Part shown: one piece after another, positions 105-7,046 of the stretch
Layout: each line of letters starts with the position of its first letter
How positions within the stretch are numbered: position 1 is the stretch's first letter
Origin: Phycisphaera mikurensis
GTDB lineage: Bacteria > Planctomycetota > Phycisphaerae > WQYP01
DNA length: 55,982 nt
Direction of reading: 5' to 3'
Assembly: GCA_022730455.1 (NCBI GenBank)
Contig: DZDI01000004.1
Location: 1 to 55,982, forward strand
The notes under the pieces: generated by a model
Seen by the model: only the letters and a program-made list of their open reading frames with translations
What the model was told of the DNA's origin: nothing
Databases searched by the model: none
Position numbers and translations under genes: made by a program

Positions 105-881
105 TCAGCCATGAAGGTCAAAGGGCTGGTAGCGCTGTTTCCCCGACAATACGACCGCCCAACCACACCGACCGCTCTGGTCCGGCCAGACGGTGACTGT
201 ATAGGGGCGGGAGATATTATGGCTACCGGGCAAGCGGGCCAACAGGTGAATGACAGTGCCCGAAGGACCGGTGCCGCGCGGGATTAAGCGCTGTGAAAAC
301 TGTAGCATCAGGCACGTTACAGGCCCCCGCTGCCACTGGGTTAACGCCGCGGGTTGGCCGGCAACAGTTACCGCCGCGAAGCCTATGAGTTTGAAGCCGC
401 CATAATTATAAAGCTCTACCGGGAACGGCATGGCAGGCAAGGCCTTCTGGAGGGAGGCCATCGTGACGTTACCCGGCGCTAACATGGGTTTATTAAGATA
501 TAATCCCAAGCTTTGCCATGCTAGGGATGTCAGCACATTTTGTCGCTGCGATTGTATCCAGAATCTTACACCTGCCAAAGCGGCTATCAGCAAAGCGGCA
601 GCGACCGCCCAAGGTACCAGACGGCGAATCATGAGTTGGAGATTTCCGGATTTATCCTCGGGAATCTTAAGTAGGCGTTCAGTCAAATCGCCCGATGGTT
701 CAGGCTGTGCCGCAGCTAAGTCCAAGCGCAGTTTTTCCTGTTCCGCCAAGGCGGCGAAGTAATAATCGCGGATATCCTCCGGTGCTGCCGCTACCAGGCG
801 ACTTAGTTCGCGGCGGTGCGGATCATCCGGCGGAAGAACGCAGTAATGATCAATAATGTTGCGCAACTCAAGAGAATTCAT
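105..881 (-). CDS. Putative membrane-anchored anti-sigma factor
   Basis: This is a 258-residue protein of unrecognised family. It has a charged N-terminal cytoplasmic part (about 1-87), one clear transmembrane helix (about 88-109, core WAVAAALLIAALAG) and a C-terminal extracytoplasmic part of about 145 residues. Its ATG overlaps the stop of the upstream ECF sigma gene (ATGA overlap at 878-881), so the two are translationally coupled. Genes in this position with this topology usually encode the anti-sigma factor that holds the ECF sigma at the membrane. I see no zinc-finger anti-sigma (HxxxCxxC) motif, so the role rests on context and topology. The C-terminal part could be the signal sensor, but no known domain is visible. 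Confidence 0.6.
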   Translation of the reverse strand: MNSLELRNIIDHYCVLPPDDPHRRELSRLVAAAPEDIRDYYFAALAEQEKLRLDLAAAQPEPSGDLTERLLKIPEDKSGNLQLMIRRLVPWAVAAALLIAALAGVRFWIQSQRQNVLTSLAWQSLGLYLNKPMLAPGNVTMASLQKALPAMPFPVELYNYGGFKLIGFAAVTVAGQPAALTQWQRGPVTCLMLQFSQRLIPRGTGPSGTVIHLLARLPGSHNISRPYTVTVWPDQSGRCGWAVVLSGKQRYQPFDLHG

Positions 882-1456
882 GATCCGTCTCCAGTATTTT
901 TGGCTTTCCTGGTCGCTGCGTCCTGACCGGCATGTAGGTGATCGGCAGCAATGGATGCCCGCAGCGATTGCTTGGCGCGGAAAAGGCGCGACAGCAGCGT
1001 GCCCAGAGGAACGTTCAATTCCCGTGCGGCCGCTTCACAACTCAGCCCCTCTGAATAAACCATAAGAAACGGCTGCTTGAAACGTATATCCAACCGGTCC
1101 AACCCCACTTGGAGGACTTCGCGCTTTGCAATATCGGATGACGTATACATTTTGTCGGCCAGTTCGGCGGCTTCTTCCAGCGGAACAGTCCGTACCATGC
1201 GGCGCTTGTTCAAGGTGCGGAAATGCCGCCGTCTTAAAATCTGAAATAGCCAGCCTCGCAGTGCGTTCTCATCCCGCAGGGTGTGAATGGAACGCCACGC
1301 GTGCAAAAAAGTCTCTTGGACGAGATCTTCCGCACCGCCATCCCGCCCACAAAGCCGAACTGCATAATGAAACAGCTCCTGCGCATGCTGTTCGACAGCT
1401 CGTTCATAAAAGGTGCGGCCAAGGGCGGGATCAGTCATACATCCACGTTCATCCAT
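878..1456 (-). CDS. ECF-family RNA polymerase sigma factor
   Basis: This sigma-70 family ECF factor directs RNA polymerase to a dedicated promoter set. Region 2 lies at about residues 27-90 (core AEDLVQETFLHAWR, then GWLFQILRR) and region 4 at about 120-175 (SCEAAARELNVPLGTLLSRL, the -35-binding helix-turn-helix). No region 3 is present, as expected for ECF factors. The ORF track starts at a TTG (1477) that lies inside a MITE-like inverted repeat. I prefer the ATG at 1456, or an ATG at 1438 just before the conserved part; neither has a strong Shine-Dalgarno sequence. The gene overlaps the putative anti-sigma gene by 4 bp. The PEP-CTERM gene upstream on the same strand may be a target, which is only inference. 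Confidence 0.88.
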   Translation of the reverse strand: MDERGCMTDPALGRTFYERAVEQHAQELFHYAVRLCGRDGGAEDLVQETFLHAWRSIHTLRDENALRGWLFQILRRRHFRTLNKRRMVRTVPLEEAAELADKMYTSSDIAKREVLQVGLDRLDIRFKQPFLMVYSEGLSCEAAARELNVPLGTLLSRLFRAKQSLRASIAADHLHAGQDAATRKAKNTGDGS

Positions 1457-1459
1457 CCA

Positions 1460-1601
1460 GTAACCGTTCACGGGCAAAAGTGGCGAAACTTATTAAATAA
1501 CCGGTGTTTTTTGCGATGCAGGCCTATTTTAGGTCTGCTCTTTGCGCATTAGTCCTATATTATCAGTTGAATTCCATTCCTTTTGCCCCGTGAACGGTTA
1601 C
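1460..1601. mobile_element. MITE-like element with long terminal inverted repeats
   Basis: The left end reads GTAACCGTTCACGGG followed by CAAAAG (1460-1480). The right end (1580-1601) is its reverse complement with one extra C. About 99 bp of AT-rich, non-coding DNA lies between them. The flanks ATCCATCCA (1451-1459) and ATCCACCCA (1602-1610) match at 8 of 9 positions in direct orientation, as expected of a target-site duplication. There is no room for a transposase, so this looks like a non-autonomous element. The tip sequence recalls IS66-type ends, which I cannot confirm. It sits at the 5' end of the ECF sigma gene and so has replaced that gene's original upstream sequence. Confidence 0.7.
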
Positions 1602-1656
1602 ATCCACCCATTTGCACCGGCGGAACCCTAGTTCCTGCTATATCGGAAAAACCGCA

Positions 1657-2292
1657 CTAGGCCGATATATTCTTCATCGTTGCTGTCTGCCGACGGCGTA
1701 AGATCAGTAATGCCGCCCCACCCATGGCCCCCAATAGCAAGGCGGGGGTTGGCTCGGGTACCGGCTGCACCTGGAACTTTGCGCCTGCGTCACTAAACGG
1801 CGCACCCGCATATACGAACGCTGTCAGCACCGATGGATGAATACCGTTGAATGAGTACATGGAATTTCCAAATACGGAAGCTGGCGCATCGGGTGTGGTA
1901 AAGGAGAAACCCGACAGGATCTTTCCGGCATCCAGATAGCCGGCTGAGCTGGTGGCTTGCCACTCAATCGAAGCCCCCTGCTCTGCTCCTCCCACCGACT
2001 GGGAATCCGGGCCGTTTTCCCATCCGGTGGGGGCAGAAACGACAGTGGGATTGCTGGCCAGATAACTCTGGCCGGGAACCCAAGAGAACCAAAATGTGCC
2101 GATTGTGCTACCTGATGTGCCCGTATTGGTGAGCGATAAATCATAGGTATAAGAACCGGCGCTATGGGAACCCAAGGTGATTGTTGCACTGGCGGTTTCG
2201 GCAGCGTCGACGTTGGCCGGTCCAACAAACGCCACTGTGGCTGCCAAGGCAACCCCCGCGGGAAGGATTGAGTTTTTCAATGTGCTGAACAT
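1657..2292 (-). CDS. PEP-CTERM sorting-domain secreted protein
   Basis: This is a 211-residue exported protein. It has an N-terminal signal peptide (about 1-30, ending near VDAAE), a Thr/Ser/Gly-rich beta-type middle, and a classical C-terminal PEP-CTERM signal: VPEP, then a hydrophobic stretch (LLLGAMGGAALLIL) and RRRQ. PEP-CTERM proteins are processed by an exosortase and typically go to the surface or an extracellular matrix; no exosortase gene is in this window. The ATG at 2292 follows AAAGG at a suitable distance. It lies upstream of the ECF sigma pair on the same strand, separated by the MITE. The specific function is unknown. Confidence 0.85.
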   Translation of the reverse strand: MFSTLKNSILPAGVALAATVAFVGPANVDAAETASATITLGSHSAGSYTYDLSLTNTGTSGSTIGTFWFSWVPGQSYLASNPTVVSAPTGWENGPDSQSVGGAEQGASIEWQATSSAGYLDAGKILSGFSFTTPDAPASVFGNSMYSFNGIHPSVLTAFVYAGAPFSDAGAKFQVQPVPEPTPALLLGAMGGAALLILRRRQTATMKNISA

Positions 2293-6638: not shown

Positions 6639-7046
6639 ATGGAATGTAGAATCAATTTGCGCGTTCGATATGTCGAATGTGATCCCATGGGGTATCTGCA
6701 CCACTCCAACTATCTGCCGTATCTGGAGATGGGCCGCACCGAACTGTTTCGTCAAAGTGGCGGCGATTACCGCACATTGGAATCGGAGGGATTCTTTTTT
6801 GTCGTTACCAAATTAAGCATTCAATTTAAGCGCCCAGCCCGGTTTGATGATGAGTTGGAGGTTATCACCCGGGTTGTCCGCAGGACACATGTGCGCATTG
6901 ACCATGACTATGACATATTTAATACAACATCCCGTATTTTAATTTCCACAGCATCGAGCACCATTGCCTGCGTAGACCGCAGCGGACAACTGATACCGAT
7001 ACCTGATAAAGTCAGCTTTCAGCCGATTGATGGCGCGGCAGGCTGA
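6639..7046 (+). CDS. Hotdog-fold acyl-CoA thioesterase (YbgC / 4-hydroxybenzoyl-CoA thioesterase type)
   Basis: This hotdog-fold protein has about 135 residues. The N-terminal signature VRYVECDPMGYLHHSNY carries the Asp used by 4HBT/YbgC-type thioesterases, followed by the long helix YLEMGRTELFRQSG and sheet segments such as KLSIQFKRPARFDDELEV. It should hydrolyse acyl-CoA thioesters in the cytoplasm; the acyl group is not predictable. The track's ATG is at 6615, but family members start shortly before the C-x-I-x-L-R-V-R-Y strand, which fits the ATG at 6639. Neither start has a strong ribosome-binding site. It ends 5 bp before the next gene and is probably co-transcribed with it. Confidence 0.85.
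   Translation: MECRINLRVRYVECDPMGYLHHSNYLPYLEMGRTELFRQSGGDYRTLESEGFFFVVTKLSIQFKRPARFDDELEVITRVVRRTHVRIDHDYDIFNTTSRILISTASSTIACVDRSGQLIPIPDKVSFQPIDGAAG

Follow-up and report, generated by a model that had tools for sequence, protein, structure and literature searches.

IS66-family elements with a single transposase ORF form the ISBst12 group, which includes ISBst12 itself and is one of the closest known systems to the element considered here. Among short repeats of other kinds, REPs are linked to Y1 (RAYT) transposases. The active ISBst12-group element ISDge4 has a single ORF, ends given as GTGACTACTCAGCA with a terminal inverted repeat of 5'-GTAACTGCTCAGCA, and an 8-bp direct repeat (PMC12898284). 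Of the miniature elements described in bacteria, MITEPsy1 is possibly of IS5 type with 4-nt duplications, and the ends of MITEPsy2 resemble those of the Tn3 family (PMC3189936). REPs measure 20-40 bp (PMC3733652).

Here, we describe a MITE at positions 1460-1601 of the window (the whole stretch of 55,982 nucleotides analysed), directly upstream of an ECF sigma factor gene. The family to which it belongs resembles the ISBst12 group of IS66 in its GTAAC-starting ends and in its 8-bp target duplications. Relatives carrying the same 14-bp end have a single transposase ORF, whereas the window element has no transposase and is 142 bp long (150-154 bp in the family), and it has only the terminal ~14-15 bp in common with the IS66 elements found here. 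It is similar to MITEPsy1 and MITEPsy2 in being short and non-coding, in having inverted termini that resemble the ends of a resident IS, and in its several copies, some of them just upstream of genes (PMC3189936), but differs from both in the IS66 ends and 8-bp duplications of its family. The REP and GTAG palindromic repeats (PMC3733652) are likewise short, palindromic, intergenic and multi-copy; the window family is unlike REPs in its 8-bp duplications and IS66 ends. No IS66-derived MITE was described in the mostly open-access papers searched, and the literature search for the end sequence found no paper. The insertion at 1460-1601 of a MITE with IS66-type ends is real and well supported; it is of an ordinary kind, and the MITE family is new within the material searched.

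Table 1. Features of the insertion locus in window coordinates.
Feature	Position	Strand	Details
Probable anti-sigma factor gene	105..881	-	assigned from its location and a hydrophobic segment; no match in Pfam
ECF sigma factor gene	878..1456	-	Pfam Sigma70_r2 and r4_2; start ATG 1456 or ATG 1438, not TTG 1477
Target-site duplication, copy adjoining sigma gene	1451..1459	.	ATCCATCCA; contains native ATG 1456-1454 (minus strand)
MITE (non-autonomous miniature element)	1460..1601	.	142 bp, IS66-type ends, aligned with other copies
Left terminal inverted repeat	1460..1480	+	GTAACCGTTCACGGGCAAAAG, 21 nt
Right terminal inverted repeat	1580..1601	-	reverse complement GTAACCGTTCACGGGGCAAAAG, 22 nt, one indel relative to left arm
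Target-site duplication, distal copy	1602..1610	.	ATCCACCCA, one substitution
PEP-CTERM-like exported protein gene	1657..2292	-	upstream, on the same strand; tail VPEPTPALLLGAMGGAALLILRRR; no match in Pfam

Direct reading of the DNA reproduced exactly the coordinates, the 142-bp total, the arms of unequal length with their single indel and the near-identical flanks put forward in the original prediction (Table 1). Both inverted arms start GTAACCGTTCACGGG, and the first 14 bp of the left arm, GTAACCGTTCACGG, constitute the end that is common to IS66-family elements. Relative to the 151-bp copies, 1460-1601 has a 9-bp internal deletion (CATTTTTGG) beside the right arm, and it departs from the copy consensus by this deletion and 10 substitutions. 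Intact copies are 151-152 bp long and have imperfect arms of ~25 nt, longer than those of 1460-1601. The predicted arm lengths of 21 and 22 nt stand as sequence; their tidiness is in part a by-product of the deletion that adjoins the right arm. With lengths of 142-154 bp, arms of 21-26 nt and no ORF of their own, the members of the family have the generic form of a MITE.

The search for other copies established that the element is multi-copy. The genome containing the window, G000, is a draft of 394 contigs and holds at least nine two-ended copies with both ends exact, 1460-1601 included, together with more copies that are cut by contig ends. The eight others align with 1460-1601 from end to end, with 83-86% identity, and are 151-152 bp long. 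The 14-bp end GTAACCGTTCACGG occurs 48 times in G000 at no more than one mismatch, compared with 2 occurrences of a reversed control pattern. Contigs C136, C98, C141, C17, C352 and others of G000 end within these elements or within IS66 copies. Since such repeats break the assembly, the copy numbers are minimum values. A crude ORF check of the other G000 copies showed none clearly interrupting a large reading frame; at one copy (L008) the upstream ORF stops at the left edge of the element. Elsewhere in G000 (L075, contig C359), IS66-type left ends at 6765 and 7471 point the same way and lie near an integrase-like reading frame, which one of them apparently interrupts.

The window element is bracketed by a 9-bp duplication in which 8 of 9 positions are identical. 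A 9-bp flank match at no more than one mismatch was seen in 3 of 9,900 mismatched flank pairs, which served as the chance control. Exact 8-bp repeats bracket 5 of the 8 other full copies in G000. Across 12 genomes from the host family, 21 of 49 copies have them, versus 0 of 2,304 unrelated-flank pairings. We also assembled a set of 100 distinct two-ended elements from the host-family copies and the GTDB copies among the matches listed, with duplicates removed. Exact 8-bp duplications are present in 49 of these versus 1 of 9,900 control pairs, and no excess was seen for 6 or 7 bp. The family norm is an 8-bp duplication, with one exact 9-bp case (G018, L164). For the window flanks, the best reading is that a duplication of 9 bp later acquired one substitution.

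Orthologues of the sigma factor are encoded in G020 (90% amino acid identity) and G024 (87%), in both within the same PEP-CTERM/sigma/anti-sigma cassette. DNA identity to these two genomes is 86-88% on the sigma side of the site and 81-84% on the other side. In G020, both flanking alignments join at the insertion site, where TGGATGGAT, the sequence of 1451-1459, is present once. The element is absent at the orthologous place from G020 and G024, the two other carriers of the cassette, which provides the empty site that the original prediction had looked to relatives for. A location directly upstream of the sigma gene and an inverted symmetry are also what a native regulatory dyad of that gene, with no insertion, might display. 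We give that explanation next to no credence, as it is ruled out by the multiple copies at unrelated sites and by two orthologous loci at which the element is missing and the sequence runs on continuously across the site. Thus, 1460-1601 is a real insertion. The original prediction had named a repeat that is unique in the genome and conserved at orthologous sigma genes as the finding that would speak for a dyad; both points were checked, and the outcome favours the MITE-like insertion it proposed, with multiple copies, a target duplication, an empty site in relatives and an IS with the same ends.

The sigma factor is 87-90% identical in amino acid sequence to that of another genus (G020, G024) and 39-42% identical to that of its own genus. 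We considered a misbinned contig as the source of this pattern. This is ruled out by RpoB, which is encoded on the window contig and is 95-97% identical to RpoB from two genomes of the same genus and ~80% identical to that of the other genus. Judged by these sequence comparisons, the window contig is native, and the cassette alone looks foreign. The cassette is a 2.35-kb unit (99-2449) of PEP-CTERM-like, ECF sigma and anti-sigma genes with 81-88% DNA identity to G020 and G024. It has the same limits in both, the neighbouring genes differ in each genome, and it looks to have been horizontally transferred as a unit.

To relate the MITE to a transposase, we inspected elements bearing its terminus. 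IS66-family transposase genes (PF03050) are present in G000, and GTAACCGTTCACGG ends single-ORF, ISBst12-like transposase elements of this family in G000 and in relatives. In G000 contigs C76 and C382, the match to the IS66 DDE domain ends 133 bp before the 14-bp terminus, which is exact in C76 and has one mismatch in C382. A complete element of 1,518 bp in G017 (contig C58) has exact 14-bp ends on both sides and one 475-aa ORF with an IS66 DDE domain; its flanks carry no matching 8-bp repeat. The full-length IS with the same ends that the original prediction proposed to look for was therefore found as regards the 14-bp terminus; the whole MITE arm was on none of the elements found. We found no autonomous IS66 element that has more in common with the MITE than the terminal ~14-15 bp, and the arm beyond position ~15 (AAAAGTGGCG) was on no transposase-bearing element found. 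Descent of the MITE as a deletion derivative of a known IS66 is therefore not supported. Many MITEs share only their ends with an IS, and missing subterminal identity lowers the claim of descent, not that of mobilisation.

Since the end sequence, the duplication length and the transposase agree, mobilisation in trans by IS66 is the best inference, and the MITE was probably moved by an IS66 transposase acting in trans. The lack of AAAAGTGGCG from the transposase-bearing elements found would also suit a MITE that belongs to another transposon family and has its first 14 bp in common with IS66 elements by coincidence. We regard such a coincidence as highly unlikely, given the 14-bp end identity, the GTAA start and the 8-bp duplications, all of which fit IS66, and given that G000 itself has IS66 transposase genes with that end. 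Counting against the IS66 account are the window duplication of 9 bp with a mismatch versus the 8-bp norm, the failure to find an autonomous IS66 with more than the terminal ~14-15 bp in common, the complete G017 element with no matching 8-bp repeat, and the many copies at contig ends of a draft genome. We nevertheless hold it very probable that 1460-1601 is a decayed copy of an IS66-ended MITE, inserted in trans by a TnpC-type IS66 transposase with a 9-bp duplication before the sigma gene. In this mechanism, the TnpC-type transposase that we infer to be responsible would recognise the GTAACCGTTCACGG ends of the MITE. The insertion would have entered a gap of ~60 bp between the PEP-CTERM-like gene and the ECF sigma gene, at a point between the sigma start codon and the native upstream DNA, with duplication of the 9-bp target. 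The clean target duplications and the empty site make trans-mobilisation by IS66 testable.

At the sigma gene, ATG 1456 lies inside the duplication, in agreement with the original prediction. Just upstream of the equivalent of this ATG, both G020 and G024 have an in-frame stop codon (TAA or TAG), indicating that translation starts at ATG 1456 or ATG 1438 and that the TTG extension of the ORF is foreign, again as proposed. The accompanying proposal that the element replaced the native promoter and leader was not upheld, as the upstream intergenic DNA persists beyond the element, where it can be aligned with that of the relatives. This native DNA has been displaced by 151 bp. The target duplication regenerates ATG 1456, and the last ~21 nt ahead of ATG 1438 survive unbroken, partly within the duplication and partly after it. 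Since the start region of the sigma gene is otherwise intact, the insertion is probably tolerated.

From the alignment of the relatives, ~60 bp separated the PEP-CTERM-like gene from the sigma gene before the insertion. Such a gap between co-directional genes suggests an operon, in which the element would be intercistronic. Because the element sits in this former gap, it would most likely affect readthrough or spacing: transcription from upstream would have to pass through 142 nt of hairpin-forming insert, and a promoter located in the gap would lie 151 bp further from the sigma gene. G000 and G020/G024 constitute a natural before/after pair for a 151-bp insert between co-directional genes.

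An alternative is that the element has been co-opted and supplies a promoter or an RNA regulatory structure that controls the sigma/anti-sigma pair. In favour are its position immediately ahead of the start codon of the pair and the sense transcript over it, which is predicted to form a full-length hairpin (-52.9 kcal/mol, z -6.8) that ends just before the start codon. However, a hairpin is expected from inverted ends, and the interiors of two other subfamilies, with structure z of +1.3 and -1.1, show no excess over shuffles, indicating that the hairpin arises mainly from the ends. These interiors, together with the lack of any Rfam match for the element, led us to reject a structured RNA. A scan of 1380-2500 for promoters of the sigma-70-like type gave 0 sites, and the divergence of this copy from the consensus marks it as decaying. 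Co-option, promoter donation to the sigma gene included, is on this evidence unlikely.

To get a broader picture of the family, we scanned GTDB for both ends lying 136-164 bp apart. This revealed at least 81 elements in that length range, with at least ~30 unrelated interiors. Among the matches listed, exact 8-bp duplications are present in 39 of 80 elements, and 58 of 81 are 150-157 bp long within the scan bounds of 136-164 bp. Record titles among the matches listed include Planctomycetota, Desulfobacterales and other Deltaproteobacteria, Spirochaetia, Dehalococcoidia, Kiritimatiellae and Verrucomicrobia. In ten genomes of the family searched with no length limit, a hand count placed 23 of 24 convergent pairs at 142-152 bp, and the remaining pair (279 bp) represents a 152-bp element that has taken up a nested insert. 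Hits in the control samples were sparse: three length windows searched in a 393-genome sample of the phylum yielded one genome apiece, and viral contigs yielded 0, 1, 0, 0 and 1 hits in five length windows. These counts raise the rather doubtful idea that, in several phyla, IS66-type GTAACCGTTCACGG ends mobilise many unrelated interiors with a preference for a total length of ~152 bp, under a size rule that the transposase imposes irrespective of sequence. Since the scan was length-bounded and the control windows were nearly empty, the length rule is only a lead; if true, the clustering would inform how IS66 transposases bring two ends together. The IS66-ended MITE family is widespread, and apparently recently mobile, among uncultured Planctomycetota; its target duplications are clean, and one insertion has an empty site in relatives.

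Several individual elements were also recorded. In G025 (contigs C182 and C280) and G010 (contigs C69 and C178), the same ends enclose interiors unrelated to the window family, at total lengths of 141-153 bp. A 150-bp element like those of the window family occupies positions 684-833 of L210, a 2.7-kb contig (JAJZBP010000297.1) from a MAG titled Bacillota, which reflects either a cross-phylum transfer or misbinning of the contig. Finally, a 152-bp element at L071:1489-1767 (G016, contig C102) holds a nested insert of ~127 bp with the ends GGGTCTGCCAAT...ATTGGCAGACCC; this insert is apparently a further miniature element, distinct from the first.
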